A stretch of DNA of 22,736 bases from a virus. This document shows positions 12,866 to 22,286 of this stretch, one piece after another; the first letter of the stretch is position 1; each line of letters begins with the position of its first letter. A program made the position numbers and the translations under genes. The DNA lies in the IMG/VR virus record IMGVR_UViG_3300024344_000134, positions 1-22,736 of that record. One strand, 5' to 3'. The notes beneath the pieces were generated by a model. The model was not told the origin of the DNA and did no database searches. It saw only the letters and a program-made list of their open reading frames with translations.

Positions 12866-13501
12866 CTATTTTTTAGGAAGTGTAAAGCCTTTAAACCAAG
12901 CAGGTAGTCCTATAAAAAGACGTTTGTCAAATTCGTTTTCTTTAGCTAACTTAGAGCCTTTTCTATTATAATGTAAAAATACTTGTCCACAATCTTTACC
13001 AGTAAATTCTTCCCGCCAATGTTCTAAATCACAACCAGAATATATTAACATGTCTCCTTTATCTAAAGTTATTTTAATTCCAGCCTGTCCTTTTCTACCT
13101 GTAGGATCTAAATATATGGGCCATGGATCGCCTCCAAGGTTTAAAGTTGTAGATATTTCACATGAATATCTGTCTTTATGTCTAGCTAAAACATCTCCTT
13201 TTTTGTAAATTCTTGCATAAGAATACGTTTCGCTTAACTTTAATTTTGTGTGTTTTTCCATTACGGGTTTTACTTTTTGTAATAAAGTTTCCATCACTAA
13301 ATCTCCATAATGAGAGTATGTATTAGGAACTTGTTGATCATTCCATACACCCCAATAATCAGTAAACGGTGATATATATTTTTGATCAAATAAAAATCTT
13401 GCTACTTTTCTTTTATTTAAAAAATAACCGTAAGCAAAATCTGCTACTTCTGAAGAAATAGCTCCTTTTAAAACACTGTATTTATTTTTTTTGAATGACA
13501 T
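12866..13501 (-). CDS. 2OG-Fe(II) oxygenase-like protein, third of the trio
   Basis: The 211-residue protein has the double-stranded beta-helix layout of prolyl-4-hydroxylase-type dioxygenases, which couple 2-oxoglutarate decarboxylation to hydroxylation. The pattern is YARIYKKGDVLARHKDRYS (95-113), giving the HxD pair His108/Asp110, then DMLIYSGCDLEHW with the distal His161. The position 12 residues on, where the middle gene of the trio has its 2OG-binding Arg, is Gln173 (CGQVFLHYN), so cosubstrate binding may be atypical or use another residue. Its ATG overlaps the preceding gene by 20 bases and is preceded by AAGGAG at 6 bases. The fold call is good; the substrate is unknown. It is clearly a different subfamily from its two neighbours. 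Confidence 0.75.
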   Translation of the reverse strand: MSFKKNKYSVLKGAISSEVADFAYGYFLNKRKVARFLFDQKYISPFTDYWGVWNDQQVPNTYSHYGDLVMETLLQKVKPVMEKHTKLKLSETYSYARIYKKGDVLARHKDRYSCEISTTLNLGGDPWPIYLDPTGRKGQAGIKITLDKGDMLIYSGCDLEHWREEFTGKDCGQVFLHYNRKGSKLAKENEFDKRLFIGLPAWFKGFTLPKK

Positions 13502-14210
13502 TCAATACTCCTTTCGGTATGGCTTGACAGTTAAAATGTATAAACCTAAATGGTTCGTACCCCATATCAACTATGTATTGATGAGGCATATAAGATGGAA
13601 AAAATATCATACGACCAGGTTGAACTTTATAGTGCACTTGTGATGTAGCATAAGTTATTTTTGTCTTATCTTTTTCTGGTAGTAAATTCATAACATTACC
13701 TGCTCTTGGGTCTTCAAACAATGGCATCGATGTTTTGTCACTAGCTTTTAAAAAATAAAAACCTGACATATGTCCGTTCCAATGAGTGTGTAATGTGTGG
13801 TGTCCACCACCTTTTTTTGCAAATTCTTGTACCCACAATTCTGTAGTAAATATTTCAAAGTTACTTAAATCAAAGCCCATTTCACCTAATAAGTTATGTG
13901 ATGTTGCTCCTATGTAATTTTGTATTTCTAAAAAAGCAGGATCTCCTATTAACGATGTAGAATGAAAAACATTTCCCATGTCTCCTTTATCACCAAATTT
14001 TTTATTTCTTTTATCTATTGCTTCTTTTAAATTTTTCTTAGACTCTTCTATGTATTTATCTGATGCTTTATTTAAATCTTTAACAAATTCTGGTGCATCT
14101 CCCCACCATATTGGACATTTAAAATATTCTTCTAATTGTAATTGTTGCGGATAAGATGCTTGATCTTTTTTTATTTTTCTTTGTTTTTGTTTTAATTTTT
14201 TATTTTTCAT
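13482..14210 (-). CDS. 2OG-Fe(II) oxygenase, second of the trio (TIGR02466/2OG-FeII_Oxy_5-like)
   Basis: I place the start at the ATG at 14208-14210, giving 242 residues, because it overlaps the upstream stop as ATGA. In-frame ATGs at 14222 and 14234 would lengthen the overlap to 16 or 28 bases and add up to 8 residues. Numbered from the 14234 start, the core shows HTHWNGHMSGFYFLKA (149-164) with candidate iron ligands His149/His151, then PGRMIFFPSYMPHQ with distal His218 and Arg230 for 2-oxoglutarate. That spacing, including SG-x-Y-x-L after the His and FPS before the distal His, is typical of the 2OG-FeII_Oxy_5 group common in marine phages. The N-terminus is very Lys-rich (about 20 residues) and may bind nucleic acid or be disordered. 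The substrate is unknown. Confidence 0.8.
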   Translation of the reverse strand: MKNKKLKQKQRKIKKDQASYPQQLQLEEYFKCPIWWGDAPEFVKDLNKASDKYIEESKKNLKEAIDKRNKKFGDKGDMGNVFHSTSLIGDPAFLEIQNYIGATSHNLLGEMGFDLSNFEIFTTELWVQEFAKKGGGHHTLHTHWNGHMSGFYFLKASDKTSMPLFEDPRAGNVMNLLPEKDKTKITYATSQVHYKVQPGRMIFFPSYMPHQYIVDMGYEPFRFIHFNCQAIPKGVLNVIQKK

Positions 14211-14833
14211 CTGTAAGGCCATCCTAAATTCCATATTACTAAACTATGTCTAGATCCTTTTTTAACTGGGCACACTCTGTGCCAAACAAAACCAGGGAAT
14301 ACAACTAAAGATCCTTTAGGTAGTATTTCTTTACACTTTCTAATGTTAGGTTTTTTATCCGGGTCTAAGTTTCTAAAATCAAATTCTAACTCACCACCTT
14401 TATAATCTTTTGGGTCTGATAAAGTAACTGTGACAGATAGCTTTCTAATTTTACCATTTGATGGATCTCCTTCTTGTCTTTGATAGGGTCTATCCCACCC
14501 ATCACAATGCCAATCATAAAACTGACCTTTTTCATATTTTGTAAATTGACAATTTTCAGAATAATCCCATTGAAAATTCCAGCCTGCACTTGCATTTGCT
14601 TCATGAATGTATGGATGTATTTCTCTATATATCCATCTATCAGACATCCAAACAATGTTAGAATCTCTTTTTTGTTTTAGATCTTTTATTTCTTTTTGAT
14701 TTAATTTTTTATCACCGTATCCACCTGTAATCGCCATTTGATCTTGTATAGATTTACCATACTTAACAATGTCGTCACAAATACGTTCTGGGATTGCTGA
14801 TTGAAAGTACCAATAATAATTTGTTAAATTCAT
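14207..14833 (-). CDS. 2OG-Fe(II) oxygenase, prolyl/PKHD hydroxylase type, first of the trio
   Basis: This 208-residue enzyme has a full set of active-site residues: FYDWHCDGW (105-113) with His109 and Asp111, distal His185 in GFVWHRVCP, and Arg195 in GSRHSLVIWNLGWP, the usual +10 spacing for binding 2-oxoglutarate. KLSVTVTLSDPKDYKGGEL (131-149) is the characteristic strand-and-turn of the P4Hc/PKHD group. Members hydroxylate protein side chains, or less often small molecules or nucleobases. It is the first gene after a promoter embedded in the 3' end of the glycine-rich gene at 14866-16746 and is coupled to the next oxygenase by ATGA. I see no good Shine-Dalgarno sequence before the ATG; with a predicted leader of about 13 bases, initiation may be nearly leaderless. 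Confidence 0.9.
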   Translation of the reverse strand: MNLTNYYWYFQSAIPERICDDIVKYGKSIQDQMAITGGYGDKKLNQKEIKDLKQKRDSNIVWMSDRWIYREIHPYIHEANASAGWNFQWDYSENCQFTKYEKGQFYDWHCDGWDRPYQRQEGDPSNGKIRKLSVTVTLSDPKDYKGGELEFDFRNLDPDKKPNIRKCKEILPKGSLVVFPGFVWHRVCPVKKGSRHSLVIWNLGWPYR

Positions 14834-14852
14834 AATATGTCTTTATGAATTT

Positions 14853-14880
14853 AATATAGCATTTCCTATGAGACTGTCAA
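14853..14880 (-). promoter_or_regulatory. Sigma70-type promoter for the oxygenase cassette
   Basis: Minus strand: a perfect TTGACA -35 (14875-14880) and a TATATT -10 (14853-14858) with a 16-base spacer. The -35 is formed by the Leu-Thr codons of the last residues (GTLTVS) of the upstream glycine-rich protein. The predicted start lies near 14846, about 13 bases before the ATG of the first oxygenase. Confidence 0.6.
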
Positions 14881-16746
14881 GGTACCAGAGGCTGTAAATC
14901 TTGCAACTGTTGTACAACCTGGAGCAGGAGATACTGAATTAGTTCCTGGAGTTACTGAAAATGATTTTGAATTAGGTCCTCTTACAATAACAACACCTGA
15001 ACCACCTTTTCCACCAGGAGTACAAACACCTGGAGTAGGAGACGCTCCTGATCCACCACCTCCACCACCACCAGATCCTACATTAGCAGTTCCTGATCCA
15101 CCACCAAAATTTCCTGGAGTTCTTCTTCCACCATTTCCACCACCAGCTTTTCCTGCACCTGTACATCCGTTGTTACCCGCAGCACCACCTCCACCACCAG
15201 CGTACGCTACACAACTTCCTGTAATTGCATTACATGCTCCGCAACCACCAGGTCCACCTTTAACACAACAACCAACTCCACCAGCTACACCAACTGAGCC
15301 AATACCACCTCCACCACCACCGGCGTTTGGATTTCCGTTTCCACCAGCATTACCTTGAGGGATAGGAGACCTTGGAGGAGTATTACCAGCAGCAGCTGGT
15401 CCTCCAGGAGTACCACCTCCACCACCTGATCCACCGGTTTTTCCAGCATAACCAGGAGAAGAGTGAACTCCACCACCACCTCCACCACCATCGGATGTTA
15501 TTTTATCTGTATTTTCTGTACCACAAACATTGAATATTGAAGCTGAACCAGTAGTTCCCGCTTGTCCTGGTGAACTTGAAGGAGTACCACCATCTCCACC
15601 ACCTCCAACAGTTATGTTGTATGTTCCTACATTTATACTTAATGCGCTTCCTCTTAATGGACTTGGTCCATAACCAGATGCACGATAACCTCCTGCACCT
15701 CCACCACCAGCTCCATCATTACATGGTGCATATCCAGAACCTCCACCACCTGCTCCACCTACTACTAAATAATCTATTGTAGTTCCTACTACAGGCCATG
15801 TTCCTTGTTTCTTAGCTTGAAACTGACTTTGCATTGACCACACACCACTTGCTTTATTAATTTCTTTTATTAAAACTATACCTGGGCCACCTGTTCCACC
15901 AGCAGCATTATTACCACCAGCTCCACCTCCACCACCAGAATTTGTAGTTCCAGCTACACCTGCAGCGCAAGCTAATCCACCTTTTCCACCACCTCCAACT
16001 CCACCTGCTTGAGGAGCACCAGATGCATGTCTGTTTCCACCTCCTCCACCACCAGCAAATTGTCCACACACAGTAGCTCCTCTGCATGAAGAATTTGCAA
16101 TATAAAAAGGTTGAGGGGCAGATCCAAAAGTAGAAGTAACTGGAGATCCAGCTCCTCCTGTTCCGCCTCCTGTTGATCCTGGATGTGATCCAGATGTTCC
16201 AGCAGCTCCAACTGCAGCCGCACCACCGCCACCGCCGCCACCGTAATTCGTTCCTGGTCCTGGTCCTCCCGGATCGGGACTACCAGCTCCACCATCATTT
16301 CCTTGACAAGCAGTTCCACTACCAGCAGCTTTAGCTGGTACTGCTCCACCACCACCTGAGCCTCCTGGTCCACCGACAGCTCCATTACCACCACCAAAAC
16401 CACCACCTGTTGATGTAATACAAAAGCCTACTGAATTATTTCCTGTACCACCAGGATTTCCATTAGGACCCGGAGTTCCTCCTCCGCCAACTGTAACGGG
16501 ATAAGATACGTTTCCACAAACTGATACTGAAGAAGATATTTGTAAACCACCAGCACCACCACCGGCTGCTGTTCCACCGCCGCCACCCCCGCCACCACCG
16601 ACGATTAGTGTATCGACTACTCTTGTTCCTGGTTGTGTTGTAATTGTTCCTGTAGAAGTTTTAGATGTAACTTTACACTTACCAAAAGAAGCTTGGTTAA
16701 GTTTTCCTATTATTCCGCCGTTTGCTGATCCTGCTGGACTAGCCAT
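14866..16746 (-). CDS. Glycine-rich tail fibre / adhesin candidate, two-unit form (626 aa)
   Basis: The protein is dominated by runs of Gly broken by Pro, Ala, Ser and Asn, in two units. Unit 1 begins VVDTLIVGGGGGGGGG near 43 and ends with VLIKEINKASGVWSM. Unit 2 begins TTIDYLVVGGAGGGG near 320 and ends GVVIVRGPNSKSFSVTPGTN. A short beta tail, RFTASGTLTVS, closes it. Each unit has a hydrophobic strand, a poly-Gly lattice and a beta strand ending in a GG turn (YPVTVGGGG, YNITVGGGG). Polyglycine-helix adhesins such as the gp38 tips of T-even phages are a known precedent. Cysteines recur (VSVCGN, VGFCITS), which is unusual. AAGGAG precedes the ATG by 7 bases. Its N-terminus, unit order and C-terminus parallel the gene at 17253-19955, so the two are paralogues. 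Confidence 0.85.
   Translation of the reverse strand: MASPAGSANGGIIGKLNQASFGKCKVTSKTSTGTITTQPGTRVVDTLIVGGGGGGGGGTAAGGGAGGLQISSSVSVCGNVSYPVTVGGGGTPGPNGNPGGTGNNSVGFCITSTGGGFGGGNGAVGGPGGSGGGGAVPAKAAGSGTACQGNDGGAGSPDPGGPGPGTNYGGGGGGGAAAVGAAGTSGSHPGSTGGGTGGAGSPVTSTFGSAPQPFYIANSSCRGATVCGQFAGGGGGGNRHASGAPQAGGVGGGGKGGLACAAGVAGTTNSGGGGGAGGNNAAGGTGGPGIVLIKEINKASGVWSMQSQFQAKKQGTWPVVGTTIDYLVVGGAGGGGSGYAPCNDGAGGGGAGGYRASGYGPSPLRGSALSINVGTYNITVGGGGDGGTPSSSPGQAGTTGSASIFNVCGTENTDKITSDGGGGGGGVHSSPGYAGKTGGSGGGGGTPGGPAAAGNTPPRSPIPQGNAGGNGNPNAGGGGGGIGSVGVAGGVGCCVKGGPGGCGACNAITGSCVAYAGGGGGAAGNNGCTGAGKAGGGNGGRRTPGNFGGGSGTANVGSGGGGGGGSGASPTPGVCTPGGKGGSGVVIVRGPNSKSFSVTPGTNSVSPAPGCTTVARFTASGTLTVS
15677..15699 (-). 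repeat. Copy of a 23-base exact match shared with 18934-18956
   Basis: It lies in the conserved GGYRASGYG-coding segment of the second unit. The flanks on both sides also match well, so this is the most conserved stretch between the two adhesin genes and a possible site for homologous exchange. Confidence 0.8.
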
Positions 16747-16756
16747 ATGAGTCTCC

Positions 16757-17215
16757 TTATGCGGATACCCAAGCTAGCGCTGATGCATCCCAGTTAAAAT
16801 CTTGTGGTTCTGTGTCGTATGAATTTGTTGAATTATTCCAAACACCTTCATCTTTAGCAGTCCATCTTTGATTATCTTCATCCCAAGCAATAGTATATCT
16901 TTTATCGCCGTCATATGTAGTAACTGTTGGATTAGGGACTGGTGCTTCCCAATCATCATTTGCGTTTAATGACCAAGATGCGTAAGGTTGTGGTGAAATA
17001 AATTTATCTTTTACAGAGTCGTATGTATATCCAATACCTGCGTATTGTTTTCTAAAATTGTGATTATAAGAAGTTTGTTTCCAAGTTCCACCTTTAAAAA
17101 AGTTTTGACACCATGTTTCTCCATCAACATGCATGTCTGAAGGAACACAATCGTTTCCTACAACAACAACTCTAGTTACTTTATTATCTCCATCTAATTC
17201 TGCGAAATGTGCCAT
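16757..17215 (-). CDS. Conserved marine-phage fibre-neighbour protein (MAHFAELD type)
   Basis: This 152-residue protein starts MAHFAELDGDNKVTRVVVV, an opening I recognise from many cyanophage and pelagiphage hypothetical proteins coded next to tail fibres. The central part has GGTWKQTSYNHNFRKQYAGI (42-61) and SPQPYASWSLNAND (74-87), also typical. The C-terminus is Trp-rich (IAWDEDNQRWTAKDEGVWNN), suggesting a small beta domain. It is secretion-signal free and has no membrane segment. It lies between the two glycine-rich adhesin genes, with AAGGAG 7 bases before the ATG and a strong promoter just upstream. A fibre-assembly or fibre-tip role is inferred from position only. Confidence 0.8.
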   Translation of the reverse strand: MAHFAELDGDNKVTRVVVVGNDCVPSDMHVDGETWCQNFFKGGTWKQTSYNHNFRKQYAGIGYTYDSVKDKFISPQPYASWSLNANDDWEAPVPNPTVTTYDGDKRYTIAWDEDNQRWTAKDEGVWNNSTNSYDTEPQDFNWDASALAWVSA

Positions 17216-17238
17216 ATTATTACTCCTTAAATTTATAT

Positions 17239-17267
17239 TTTATATTTTAATTTTAACTTATTGTCAA
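17239..17267 (-). promoter_or_regulatory. Strong sigma70-type promoter embedded in the end of the 900-aa adhesin gene
   Basis: Minus strand: perfect TTGACA (17262-17267), 17-base spacer, TATAAA (17239-17244). A second TATAAA follows at 17232-17237. The -35 is encoded by the Leu-Thr codons of the GTLTIS tail and the stop codon lies in the spacer. Transcription would start near 17232, about 17 bases before the ATG of the 152-residue gene. This is the best promoter in the window. Confidence 0.7.
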
Positions 17268-19955
17268 CGTTCCATTAACTGTAAATGTCATTACAGTACA
17301 GCCTCCTGCAGGGCCTGGTAATGTTGCTTTTGTGTTAGTTCCTGGGGCTACACTATAGCCTGGTCCAGCCGGTCCTGGTGCTCTTAATATAACGACCCCT
17401 GATCCACCTGCTCCACCACTATTATTATAGGACGGATTATAAGAACCTTGGGCACCGCCACCGCCGCCACCTCTATTAACGGTTCCAGTTCCACCAGTTC
17501 CACAATTAGCTTTACTTCCTGCTCCACCTGTTCCACACGGAGAAGCTGCTCCAACTGTTCCTGGTCCTGGGGCTCCATTATAACCTACACCACCTCCGCC
17601 ACCACCAGCGTAAGATAATGCTGATCCTGAAATACTGTTTGGTGCTCCTGCTCCACCTCTACCAGCTTGAATTGGACTTTGTGGTCCTGGTGCACCAACT
17701 CCTGCTTCAGTTGCTCCACCTCCGCCACCACCAGCTGTTTCTCCATTTTGAGATGAATTACCACCAGGGAAACCTTGTGATGCACAAGTTCTTGGAATAT
17801 TTCCTGCGCCACCATAAGCACCTGTACCACCTGGTCCTGGGGGAGTTTGCCCTGGATTATTTAATGGGTTTTCACCCATGTAACCACCTGCTCCAGATCC
17901 ACCATCTCTGGCATCTATCCCTGATGCTCCAGAACTAGCACCACCACCACATGAAGGCGCTGATCCGCCACCACCACCAGCAGATGTAATATATCCTACA
18001 GAAGAGCATCCTCCTCTAACGTTTGCTGCACCACCAGCACCAACTTGAACATAATTTGCTCCTGGTTCTAAAAATACTTTTGTTCCACCTGGAAAAGAAG
18101 TTCTATAACCACCTCCACCTCCACCACCACCAGAGTATGTTGTTGCAGGTGTTACTCCTCCACCACCACCGCCTGCTACTACTAAGTAATCAAAACCGTT
18201 AGAAGGTACATCTCCAACTATATTTAAATTTGCTGATGCTTTAAATTTTGCAATAAAAGTTGATACACCACCGTCTGGTGAACAGACTGGAGCGCAAGAA
18301 CTATTTGTTGTTACATATTGATTTGTTCTTAAAATTACAATTCCTGAACCACCATTACCTGAAGGATATGTTCCACTACTACTTGTTCCTCTAGAACCAG
18401 CTCCTCCTCCACCACCAGTATTAACCGATCCAGATGTTCCAGGACTAGCATTACCACCAGCTCCTCCACCACCATATCCACCGTTTCTTGGTGAGCCTGG
18501 TGTACCTTCGGTACCACCACCTCCACCACCGGCATAATATCTATTTCCTCCTGTTATCTCATTTGGTGCTCCCGTACCACCTGGGCCACCAGGGGTATTA
18601 GTAGTAGCTCCGCCACCGCCACCACCTCTTCTGGCTCCTGGATTGTTAGCACCACCTGGGTTTCCTTCTGGTATGGTAAAGCCACCCGCATTTCCAGTTC
18701 CTCCGGATAAAAGTGCACCACATGGTTCACCAGGTGCTCCACCTCCTGAACCTCCTGGTCTAGTTCCACCACCACCTCCAGATGCTGTTATCGTTAAAAA
18801 GCTTGAAGGTCCTCCACAGTGTCCTGGATGTCCTGGAGAAGCGTCTCCTGTTCCACCAGCTCCAACTACGACTGGATAAGTCCCTAAACTTGCACATAAT
18901 ATTGTTCCTTGCAGTGGGCTCGGTCCATATCCTGATGCACGATAACCTCCTGCACCACCTCCTGAATAAGGTGATCCACCACCTCCACCACCACCTACTA
19001 TTAAATAATCTATATAAGCTTTTCTTGAAGCCCATGAATTTGTTAATCTTTTTTCGTAAACACTATTCATACTCCAGACTCCTGGAGCATTGTTTAATTC
19101 TTTTACTATTACAACTCCTGACCCACCTATTCCTCTAGGGCCTGTTGCTGGATGAGGTGTTCCACCACCACCAGTTCCACCGCCGCCACCACCAGTATTT
19201 GCAGCTCCAAGAGAAGGATTTAATGGTCCTGCTGGATCATCACTTACACCTATTCCTTTTCCGCCACCACCTGGTCCGGCTGCACCACCTGTATAACTTG
19301 AGTTAGCAGCTCCACCGCCACCACCAGCTCTTAATGTACAATCTCCTGGCCATGCAGATGAACCTGTTCCACCATCTCCACCTTTAGGACCTGATCCGTT
19401 TTGACCAACTGCGCCTTTTCCACCGCCGCCACCGCCGCCGTGAGAACAAGCATTAGGATTTCCTGTTCCACCAGCATTACCTTGTGAACATGGACCAGCT
19501 GAACCACCAGCTTTTCCCCAGCCACCGCCGCCGCCAGATCCACCTGGAGCACCAACTGCTGGTCCTGGAGTTGGGGAAGGTTGAGAAGGACCTCTTTGAT
19601 CCGTTCCTCCGCCACCGCCGCCAGTTGAAGTTATACAAAAACCTACTGAATTAGTTCCTGCACCTGCACATGAACCACCTCCTGGGGGAGCAACACCTGC
19701 TGCACCTCCACCACCAACTGTAATTGGATAATCTGTGCCACCTGTAACAGTTGCATTACAAGAACTTAAATAACCACCTGCTCCGCCTCCGCCACCAGAT
19801 GCACCGCCACCACCGCCGCCACCGACGACTAAAACATCTACTTTTGTAGTTCCTGGTTGTGTTGTAAAAGTTGAAGTTGATTTTACTTGAGTAACTTTAT
19901 CACCACCACTAGAAGTTACATTACAAGGTCCAATTATTCCGCCATTGCCAGCCAT
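17253..19955 (-). CDS. Glycine-rich tail fibre / adhesin candidate, three-unit form (900 aa)
   Basis: Three successive poly-Gly units can be seen. They start at VDVLVVGGGGGGG (39-51), YIDYLIVGGGGGGG (about 312) and FDYLVVAGGGGGG (about 585), each with a strand ending in VGGGG or VGAGG and closing with GSG(I/V)VI(V/L). Between units 1 and 2 is the linker NNAPGVWSM, a GVWS(L/M) element seen in many marine phage fibres. The C-terminus is TFTVNGTLTIS. Cysteines recur at intervals (SSCNA, GFCITS, GPCSQG, NACSHG). The N-terminus shares NGGIIG, TQPGT and the first strand with the 626-residue protein. A strong AGGAGG lies about 10 bases before the ATG. A cell-surface-binding fibre of polyglycine-helix type is the best guess; the target is unknown. 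Confidence 0.85.
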   Translation of the reverse strand: MAGNGGIIGPCNVTSSGGDKVTQVKSTSTFTTQPGTTKVDVLVVGGGGGGGASGGGGGAGGYLSSCNATVTGGTDYPITVGGGGAAGVAPPGGGSCAGAGTNSVGFCITSTGGGGGGTDQRGPSQPSPTPGPAVGAPGGSGGGGGWGKAGGSAGPCSQGNAGGTGNPNACSHGGGGGGGKGAVGQNGSGPKGGDGGTGSSAWPGDCTLRAGGGGGAANSSYTGGAAGPGGGGKGIGVSDDPAGPLNPSLGAANTGGGGGGTGGGGTPHPATGPRGIGGSGVVIVKELNNAPGVWSMNSVYEKRLTNSWASRKAYIDYLIVGGGGGGGSPYSGGGAGGYRASGYGPSPLQGTILCASLGTYPVVVGAGGTGDASPGHPGHCGGPSSFLTITASGGGGGTRPGGSGGGAPGEPCGALLSGGTGNAGGFTIPEGNPGGANNPGARRGGGGGGATTNTPGGPGGTGAPNEITGGNRYYAGGGGGGTEGTPGSPRNGGYGGGGAGGNASPGTSGSVNTGGGGGAGSRGTSSSGTYPSGNGGSGIVILRTNQYVTTNSSCAPVCSPDGGVSTFIAKFKASANLNIVGDVPSNGFDYLVVAGGGGGGVTPATTYSGGGGGGGGYRTSFPGGTKVFLEPGANYVQVGAGGAANVRGGCSSVGYITSAGGGGGSAPSCGGGASSGASGIDARDGGSGAGGYMGENPLNNPGQTPPGPGGTGAYGGAGNIPRTCASQGFPGGNSSQNGETAGGGGGGATEAGVGAPGPQSPIQAGRGGAGAPNSISGSALSYAGGGGGGVGYNGAPGPGTVGAASPCGTGGAGSKANCGTGGTGTVNRGGGGGGAQGSYNPSYNNSGGAGGSGVVILRAPGPAGPGYSVAPGTNTKATLPGPAGGCTVMTFTVNGTLTIS
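18934..18956 (-). repeat. Copy of a 23-base exact match shared with 15677-15699
   Basis: It codes the GGYRASG part of the second unit of the 900-residue adhesin. Its partner lies in the second unit of the 626-residue adhesin. Confidence 0.8.
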
Positions 19956-20381: not shown

Positions 20382-21086
20382 TTATCCGAAAATCATTGCC
20401 ATTGCAATAGCTTTTCCTGTTGTTATACCAAAAGATGATGTTGCTGTCCAGCCCAGTGTTCCCGAACCATCTGTAGTTACTAGAGCTGTGCTTGAAGCCC
20501 CTACTGCAGCTGGTAAAGTTAACGTATAAGAAGTTGCTGTAGCAGCTGATTTAATACCTATATAAGCTGAGTTATCAGCATCATTTAATTTTAATGCATT
20601 TTGATTATTTAATGTAATTTCTGAAAAAGCAGAAAAAACATCGATTACGCTAGGATTACTACTTTCACCATCTACATAAATAAGTTTATATCCTTTATCT
20701 GTAGTAGACCATGTAACCGTTCCACCTGATCCAGAAACAGTTTTAAATTGAACAGTATATGCTCCACTTGTACTATTTTTAACTAAGTACCAATTTTCAA
20801 CATCGTTAGGAACTGTTACAATTTTAGCTCCTGTAATTGCTTCAGGAGAAACTGCTCCTAAAATAATTACTCTAGTTGCAAGAGTCGCTCCAGTCGATCC
20901 ATCTGATACAGCAAGAGCTGTAGTGTTTGCTCCAGATCCTCCAGCGTTTAAAGTTTGAACTTTAAAACCACCTTGAATTTGTTCTATAATATTTAAATTA
21001 GTATTAGTCTTTGTTCCCCAAGTACCGGCGTTTTCACCAGTAGCCATTAATTCTACGCCGAGAGGTGTGTAAGTTGATGATGACAT
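20382..21086 (-). CDS. Tail-fibre-like protein with conserved N- and C-terminal signatures
   Basis: This 234-residue protein starts with YTPLGVELMATGENAGTWG, followed by TKTNTNLNIIEQ, an N-terminal virion-attachment signature I recognise from many marine phage fibre proteins. Beta-rich segments follow. A second recognisable block is KLNDADNSAYIGIKSAATAT (about 166-185) with SYTLTLPAA, a unit typical of phage fibre and host-specificity proteins. It ends SFGITTGKAIAMAMIFG, a C-terminus also shared widely in this group. The length suits a short fibre or connector rather than a full-length receptor-binding protein. AGGAGA stands about 9 bases before the ATG, and a good promoter sits in the 60-base gap upstream. 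The function is inferred from the family pattern. Confidence 0.85.
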   Translation of the reverse strand: MSSSTYTPLGVELMATGENAGTWGTKTNTNLNIIEQIQGGFKVQTLNAGGSGANTTALAVSDGSTGATLATRVIILGAVSPEAITGAKIVTVPNDVENWYLVKNSTSGAYTVQFKTVSGSGGTVTWSTTDKGYKLIYVDGESSNPSVIDVFSAFSEITLNNQNALKLNDADNSAYIGIKSAATATSYTLTLPAAVGASSTALVTTDGSGTLGWTATSSFGITTGKAIAMAMIFG

Positions 21087-21111: not shown

Positions 21112-21140
21112 TTTATATTGTTTATTTAGTTTTAAGTCAA
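21112..21140 (-). promoter_or_regulatory. Sigma70-type promoter ahead of the fibre-like gene
   Basis: Minus strand: TTGACT (21135-21140), 17-base spacer, TATAAA (21112-21117), each 5 of 6 to consensus. It lies entirely in the 60-base gap between the repeat protein and the fibre-like gene. The predicted start, near 21105, leaves a leader of about 19 bases that contains the Shine-Dalgarno sequence. Confidence 0.65.
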
Positions 21141-21146
21141 ACATAA

Positions 21147-22286
21147 TTATGAAGCTACTTTATCGGTGTATGAGGCGCTAGTTCTAGGTGTCTTAGTACT
21201 ATATGAGGCGCTAGTTCTAGGTGTCTTGTCACTATATGAAGCACTCGTACGAGGATATAATTCTTGATAATATCTTAATATTAATTCATCTGCTACAGAA
21301 GTAGTAGCTGTTTGACCTAGTCCCACTAGACTAGCCACAGTCGCTTGAACAGTGGTTACACTATTAACACTTGATGTAGCCGATTGACCAGCTAATACAA
21401 CTGGAGTTAATGGTGTGACTGTTAATGAACCTAAAGAACTTGTAGCTACAATTCCACTTAATTGGAAAGTTGGATTAGATGTAATTGTTAATGATCCAGT
21501 AGCCGAAGTTGCACTTAAACCTGTTATTCCTATTACATCGGCAGGTGATAACGAGCCTACAGATGATGTAGCTGTTAAACCAGTTAATCCCATTGATTGA
21601 TCTGCAGGATCTAAAGTTCCAACAGCTGATGTTGCACTTAGCGCTGAAAGTGTGGTTGTGTTATCAGAACTAACTGATAATGAACCAAGAGAACTTGTTG
21701 CACTTAACCCAGTTAATCCCATTACTTGATCTGCAGGATCTAATACTCCTACAGATGATGTTGCACTTAAACCTGGTAATGTAAATTGAGCTGCTTCAAC
21801 AGATCCCCAACCATTAATTCCCCAAGATAATGTGCCCCAACCAGGTTTGACATAAACATTTTCAGTTGGAAGATTTAAAGATGATGTTGCGCTTAATCCA
21901 CTTAGTCCAACTACATCTGCTGGACTTAAAGCTCCTACAGAACTTGTTGCTGATTGTCCTGTTAATCCCATTACATCTGCTGGACTTAAAGCTCCTACAG
22001 AACTTGTAGCTGTTAAACCTGTTAATCCCATTACTTGATCAGCAGGAACTAAAGCTCCAACTGAAGATGTAGCAGAAAGTGCAGGAAGAACGGCATAAGG
22101 TGAATCACCCCACATACCAGATCCATAAGCCTCACGGCCCCATCCTTGTTCAAGAAGATCAGAATCATTCCAACCAGCTTGTCCCCACGTATAACGTCCG
22201 TATCCTTCTGAGACACCTGTATACGAAAGGTCTCCTAAAGTTGAAGTAGAAGAAAGACCCGTTACTGTGAATGTAACGTCAGCCAT
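21147..22286 (-). CDS. ATSSVG-repeat virion protein with Trp-Gly segments
   Basis: The 379-residue protein has about eleven copies of a G-L-(S/T)-A-T-S-S-(V/L)-G-(S/A)-L unit, with cores at residues 72, 92, 112, 132, 174, 196, 217, 238, 258, 280 and 302, mostly 20-22 residues apart, many followed by SPADVMGLTG. Two Trp-Gly segments interrupt: residues 29-60 (TWGQAGW, QGWGREAYGSGMWGD) and 148-162 (KPGWGTLSWGINGWG). The C-terminus carries three 11-residue PRTSASYSDKT copies. Each ATSSVG unit is probably one or two beta strands of an elongated fibre. TAGGAG, which holds the upstream stop codon, gives the ribosome site 6 bases before the ATG. I recognise this repeat type from marine phages but know no function for it. 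Confidence 0.8.
   Translation of the reverse strand: MADVTFTVTGLSSTSTLGDLSYTGVSEGYGRYTWGQAGWNDSDLLEQGWGREAYGSGMWGDSPYAVLPALSATSSVGALVPADQVMGLTGLTATSSVGALSPADVMGLTGQSATSSVGALSPADVVGLSGLSATSSLNLPTENVYVKPGWGTLSWGINGWGSVEAAQFTLPGLSATSSVGVLDPADQVMGLTGLSATSSLGSLSVSSDNTTTLSALSATSAVGTLDPADQSMGLTGLTATSSVGSLSPADVIGITGLSATSATGSLTITSNPTFQLSGIVATSSLGSLTVTPLTPVVLAGQSATSSVNSVTTVQATVASLVGLGQTATTSVADELILRYYQELYPRTSASYSDKTPRTSASYSTKTPRTSASYTDKVAS
21162..21259 (-). repeat. 33-base tandem repeat, three copies
   Basis: Units start at about 21171, 21204 and 21237 (tgaggcgctagttctagg in the first two, diverged in the third). They code the C-terminal PRTSASYSDKT triplet of the repeat protein. The first two units are nearly identical, the third has synonymous changes, and the unit length is a multiple of three. 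Confidence 0.85.
21912..22007 (-). repeat. 60-base tandem repeat in the ATSSVG gene
   Basis: A 36-base stretch at 21912-21947 is repeated exactly at 21972-22007, a 60-base period equal to one 20-residue protein unit (SATSSVGALSPADV). Other units in the gene match less well, so this pair looks like the most recent duplication. Confidence 0.85.

Follow-up and report, generated by a model that had tools for sequence, protein, structure and literature searches.

The window, that is the whole stretch of DNA analysed here, is a virus contig of 22.7 kb related to pelagiphage HTVC033P, an HMO-2011-type phage of SAR11 (PMC9038755). In order of transcription, the minus strand contains a glycine-rich gene, a phrog_7759 gene, a second glycine-rich gene and two 2OG-Fe(II) oxygenase genes. 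These genes and the promoter elements discussed below are the following:

21112..21140, minus strand: TTGACT-17-TATAAA, a third promoter-like site, non-coding, between genes 21147-22286 and 20382-21086
17253..19955, minus strand: first glycine-rich tail gene, 900 aa, Pfam Gly_rich_2, ending in FTVNGTLTIS
17262..17267, minus strand: TTGACA, proposed -35, identical to the Leu-Thr codons of the first tail
17239..17244, minus strand: TATAAA, proposed -10, spacing 17, with a start expected near 17232
17223..17228, minus strand: AAGGAG, ribosome-binding site of the phrog_7759 gene
16757..17215, minus strand: phrog_7759 gene, 152 aa, function unknown, downstream of the first embedded promoter
14866..16746, minus strand: second glycine-rich tail gene, 626 aa, Pfam Gly_rich_2, ending in FTASGTLTVS
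14875..14880, minus strand: TTGACA, proposed -35, identical to the Leu-Thr codons of the second tail
14853..14861, minus strand: TGC-TATATT, proposed extended -10 (TATATT at 14853-14858), spacing 16, with a start expected near 14846
14207..14833, minus strand: 2OG-Fe(II) oxygenase gene, 208 aa, first gene of the cassette behind the second embedded promoter
13482..14234, minus strand: second 2OG-Fe(II) oxygenase gene of the same cassette, 250 aa

Both glycine-rich proteins contain the glycine-rich domain PF21722 (E values of 5.9e-25 and 1.4e-41), and from their composition and position we infer that they are adhesins. One glycine-rich phage adhesin is gp38 of the T-even phages. Like it, the genes described here have long glycine-rich modules, and they too are variable and lie in the tail region, but they match the Pfam family Gly_rich_2 and are likened to gp38 by composition and position.

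The first glycine-rich gene ends GGA ACG TTG ACA ATA AGT TAA and the second GGT ACC TTG ACA GTC TCA TAG. The first-pass annotation had described both genes as ending in GTLT(I/V)S with the Leu-Thr pair spelled TTGACA and with a -10 box past each stop codon at 16-17 nt. Sequence and coordinates bear this out (TATATT at 16 and TATAAA at 17 nt), and the transcript starts that it predicted agree with the positions of the -10 boxes. By sequence match these sites are of the sigma-70 type, with a TTGACA-like -35 and a TATAAT-like -10 separated by 16-18 nt, a consensus that may not be that of SAR11. Sites marked TTGTTTGACTTAAAACTAAATAAACAATATAAA, akin to the third one at 21112-21140, precede genes homologous to 20382-21086 in four related loci (L090, L221, L231 and L255). 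Within the window TTGACA is found 15 times against 19 expected, and a scan of the window alone gave no excess of promoter-like sites over shuffled sequences. As neither was enriched, relatives were collected for comparison. A BLASTN search of a phage collection gave only one close isolate and TBLASTN with the second glycine-rich protein matched only this same isolate, so loci from IMG/VR were used. They were gathered by three routes: homology searches with the first oxygenase and with the phrog_7759 protein gave 80 loci each, and a pattern-only scan looked for the gene-end peptide in any synonymous spelling. After removal of identical copies, 213 GTLT gene ends were left. Starts of the next genes were assigned mechanically, as an ATG with an open frame. 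For 209 distinct ends, nearly all of them on IMG/VR contigs, we compared tails with room for a promoter, meaning at least 20 nt from the stop to the next ATG, and tails without it.

Among the 213 ends the Leu-Thr pair was spelled TTGACA in 131, TTGACT in 32, TTAACA in 19, TTAACT in 15 and otherwise in 16. TTGAC(A/T) was used in 161 of the 193 tails with room but in only 2 of the 16 without it (p 9e-9), TTGACA alone accounting for 130 of the 193. The same difference was seen in the pattern-only subset (TTGAC(A/T) in 88/107 vs 2/12, p 9e-6) and after de-replication at 80% with TTGACA only (55/98 vs 1/14, p 9e-4). Where the tail peptide is internal and opens the next glycine-rich module (for example FTASGTLTVGETGSGVSTNYLVVGGGGG), none of its 16 copies contains TTGAC. 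Outside the tails, the 1583 Leu-Thr pairs of the related loci include 18 TTGACA and 23 TTGACT (41/1583 together), and TTG makes up 7.4% of Leu codons. In the tails it makes up 83%, and the neighbouring codons are mixed (GGA 68%, TCT 53%, GTA 48%). The earlier proposal would have fallen with random codon choice in relatives, and the choice found at their GTLT tails is non-random. These counts show that selection, rather than chance, maintains the TTG-ACA spelling, and they support the view that the tail TTGACA behaves as a promoter -35 under selection. The Thr codon in front of the tail TTGACA is also biased, being ACA in 60%, ACG in 32% and ACT in 3%, a preference that is unexplained; over the related loci as a whole ACT makes up 36% of Thr codons and ACG 5.5%.

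The presence of a -10 goes with the codons. A box with at least five of six matches was found 15-19 nt away in 115 of 130 TTGACA tails but in only 6 of the 32 tails that use other codons. In 83% of the TTGACA tails TATA stands 16 or 17 nt away. The TATAAA-like box that had been anticipated behind the tails of relatives is thus present in most TTGACA tails. The spacing stays at 16-17 whether one, two, three or four residues come after Leu-Thr, and -35 and -10 are conserved together across the relatives, as in promoters of the sigma-70 type. Tails with other codons followed by long gaps often have a separate promoter past the stop, such as CCCCTTGACA-17-TATAAT or TTTACT-17-TAAAAC. We consider it highly probable, at roughly 85%, that the glycine-rich tail ends are dual-coded, the Leu-Thr codons TTG-ACA being at the same time the -35 of a sigma-70 type promoter for the downstream gene. 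In the conserved end FTxxGTLT(I/V)S the TTG-ACA would double as the -35, with the -10 lying 16-17 nt further on, past the stop; the first of these promoters would serve the phrog_7759 gene and the second the 2OG-Fe(II) oxygenase cassette. The target of selection would then be the DNA of the downstream gene's promoter, the choice of Leu codon being silent in the protein.

Essentially only two gene families are found downstream of these tails, and they differ from each other in -10, spacing and leader. The oxygenase type has a spacing of 16, TATATT or TATAAG, often a TGn (48 of 80 relatives) and a leader of about 8-10 nt; no Shine-Dalgarno-like site was found in the relatives compared. The phrog_7759 type has a spacing of 17 and TATAAA (the same type in 62 of 75 relatives), and 69 of the 75 also have a Shine-Dalgarno-like site. 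We weighed the possibility that the phrog_7759-type sites are late promoters of the T4 kind (TATAAATA) and dismissed it, since they have a -35 at a constant distance and the relatives do not resemble T4. The early region of HTVC033P contains eight TTGACA-17-TATNNT/C sites. Its annotation lists no RNA polymerase or sigma factor, the search for an RNA polymerase being one with no working control, and HTVC033P gave no match to Sigma70_r2. The host sigma-70 is the likeliest factor for transcription from the sites described here, and host RNA polymerase would start at them.

In some loci TTGATCTAGATCAA, a palindrome that fits the FNR/CRP-family pattern TTGAT-N4-ATCAA, separates the glycine-rich stop from the TTTACT-17-TATAAA/TAAAAC promoter of the oxygenase gene (L023 at 3427, L052 at 2567, L064 at 3006, L073 at 3228, L161 at 1733 and about 20 further loci, all outside the window). 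Between the end of the palindrome and the -35 there are in most cases 5 or 15 nt, distances one helical turn apart, and this spacing suggests an activator site. A scan of bacterial genomes found no such palindrome beside a similar promoter, and a 20-nt extension of it matched two contigs, neither of them from SAR11.

Of the 161 TTGACA promoters in front of the two gene families, 118 fall within the upstream gene, where 114 are read in frame as Leu-Thr, and the other 43 come after its stop, although a few of the latter (e.g. L192) may depend on a mechanically chosen upstream stop. In 25 of these 43 non-coding sites an in-register stop is kept exactly where the old tail ended. A group with CCCCTTGACAATTTTAAATAAC among the 43, mostly outside the 25, represents a separate promoter instead of a relic. 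Examples of relics are CAATAA-TTGACAGTTTCATAA in L115 and L162, where the upstream gene now ends in IRYK(F/Y)Q, and GGAACG-TTGACAATAAGTTAA in L231, where it ends in GTWPT. HTVC033P itself has one intact tail, and its other glycine-rich gene has the relic TTGACAATAAGTTA right past the stop. The TTGACA DNA persists without a coding role and it is therefore the promoter DNA and not the codons that is conserved, the promoter belonging to the downstream gene. The glycine-rich proteins of these loci use a few alternative ends (GTLTVS, VKxGTWTN, IRYKFQ and GNYVVN in L101, L115, L132, L138, L231 and others) that resemble the joints between modules, a hint that entire end modules have been lost or exchanged.

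The first-pass annotation had gone further and seen in the shared tail a module that moves with the adhesin gene and makes a promoter for whatever gene follows. The part of that idea in which the tail TTGACA acts as a selected -35 is supported; the part in which the promoter is carried to any downstream gene is not, at least in that form. Within one genome the same tail and -35 do stand ahead of two gene families unrelated to each other, and in L011 and L187 a new TTGAC-bearing tail lies ahead of an older relic tail, as a moving tail would leave it. However, the restriction to two families that differ in -10 type and leader, and the 43 loci in which TTGACA has stayed with the downstream gene in the absence of a coding tail are against such movement. 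Besides, the -10 lies outside the tail, so that a moved tail would bring only half a promoter. We thus regard a travelling tail as improbable. L011 and L187 may rather illustrate how exchange could leave the old promoter working.

Alternatively, TTGACA could be conserved at the adhesin border as a motif for recombination or DNA processing rather than as a promoter. Changes of the upstream end do cluster just before TTGACA, and in about 10 loci the new upstream stop is directly against it. Yet such a motif leaves unexplained why the -10 keeps a constant distance, why TTG is lost where there is no place for a -10 and why many loci with TTG-less tails have a separate promoter, and we find it very unlikely.

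The loci are related and the tails clearly homologous, so that TTG-ACA could in principle be a frozen accident copied from one ancestral sequence. The codon state, though, switched 10 and 9 times on the trees of the two downstream genes (about 19 in all), and the switches go with the -10. In independent pairs the -10 moves the same way in 5.7/7 and 3.2/7, almost never in the opposite one, with p ~0.03 in the independent-pairs test for the first set (one gene family) only; the loci are linked by descent and recombination and the trees are therefore rough. The free variation of neighbouring tail codons beside a Leu codon that is so largely TTG, and the TTGACA retained in non-coding relic copies, also oppose shared ancestry alone, to which we give hardly any credence. 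In the tree sets 21 of 158 TTGAC tails have no -10 at 15-18 nt, and these TTG-bearing tails are best seen as relics after promoter replacement. Finally, chance, a common hexamer next to an AT-rich intergenic region, would agree with the lack of enrichment across the window, but it is refuted by the codon choice and opposed by all the comparative counts in relatives, and is negligible.

Compact phage and bacterial genomes contain sigma-70 (RpoD) promoters that reach into the 3' end of the preceding gene. The promoters predicted here resemble them in the hexamers 16-17 nt apart and in beginning within the upstream gene, and two early sites of HTVC033P (L281), at 2066 and 3103, are comparable as well, since the TGA within their TTGACA is also the annotated stop of the upstream early gene. 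What sets the promoters predicted here apart is a -35 that falls on the conserved peptide motif closing a variable tail gene, that occurs ahead of both gene families and that outlives the coding end as relic DNA. Morons are accessory genes in the structural part of a phage genome that bring a promoter and a terminator of their own. The 2OG-Fe(II) oxygenase cassette, in the tail region and with its own predicted promoter, is like them at the sequence level only, and differs in having the -35 within the upstream structural gene. The literature searched held no report of such promoters in pelagiphages and no transcript map for this group of SAR11 phages.

Returning to dual coding of the tail end, the promoter seems to stay put while the 3' ends of the adhesin genes are exchanged. 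The upstream end would be exchanged or truncated at or just before TTGACA, with the promoter surviving as non-coding DNA, and selection against promoter loss would set the border of the exchange. As a tentative extension, the tail promoter might thus act as a fixed limit to the exchange of adhesin ends. Recombinants with a broken promoter would be lost, ends would be swapped up to the promoter and the accessory genes would stay expressed. These tails provide an unusually clean natural experiment on dual coding, TTG-ACA being used only where a promoter is both needed and possible, and the persistence of the promoter as relic DNA once its coding role is lost is part of that experiment. They also name two precise predicted promoters in relatives of an abundant SAR11 phage, and suggest, plausibly, that the points of exchange in variable tail genes can be determined by promoters.
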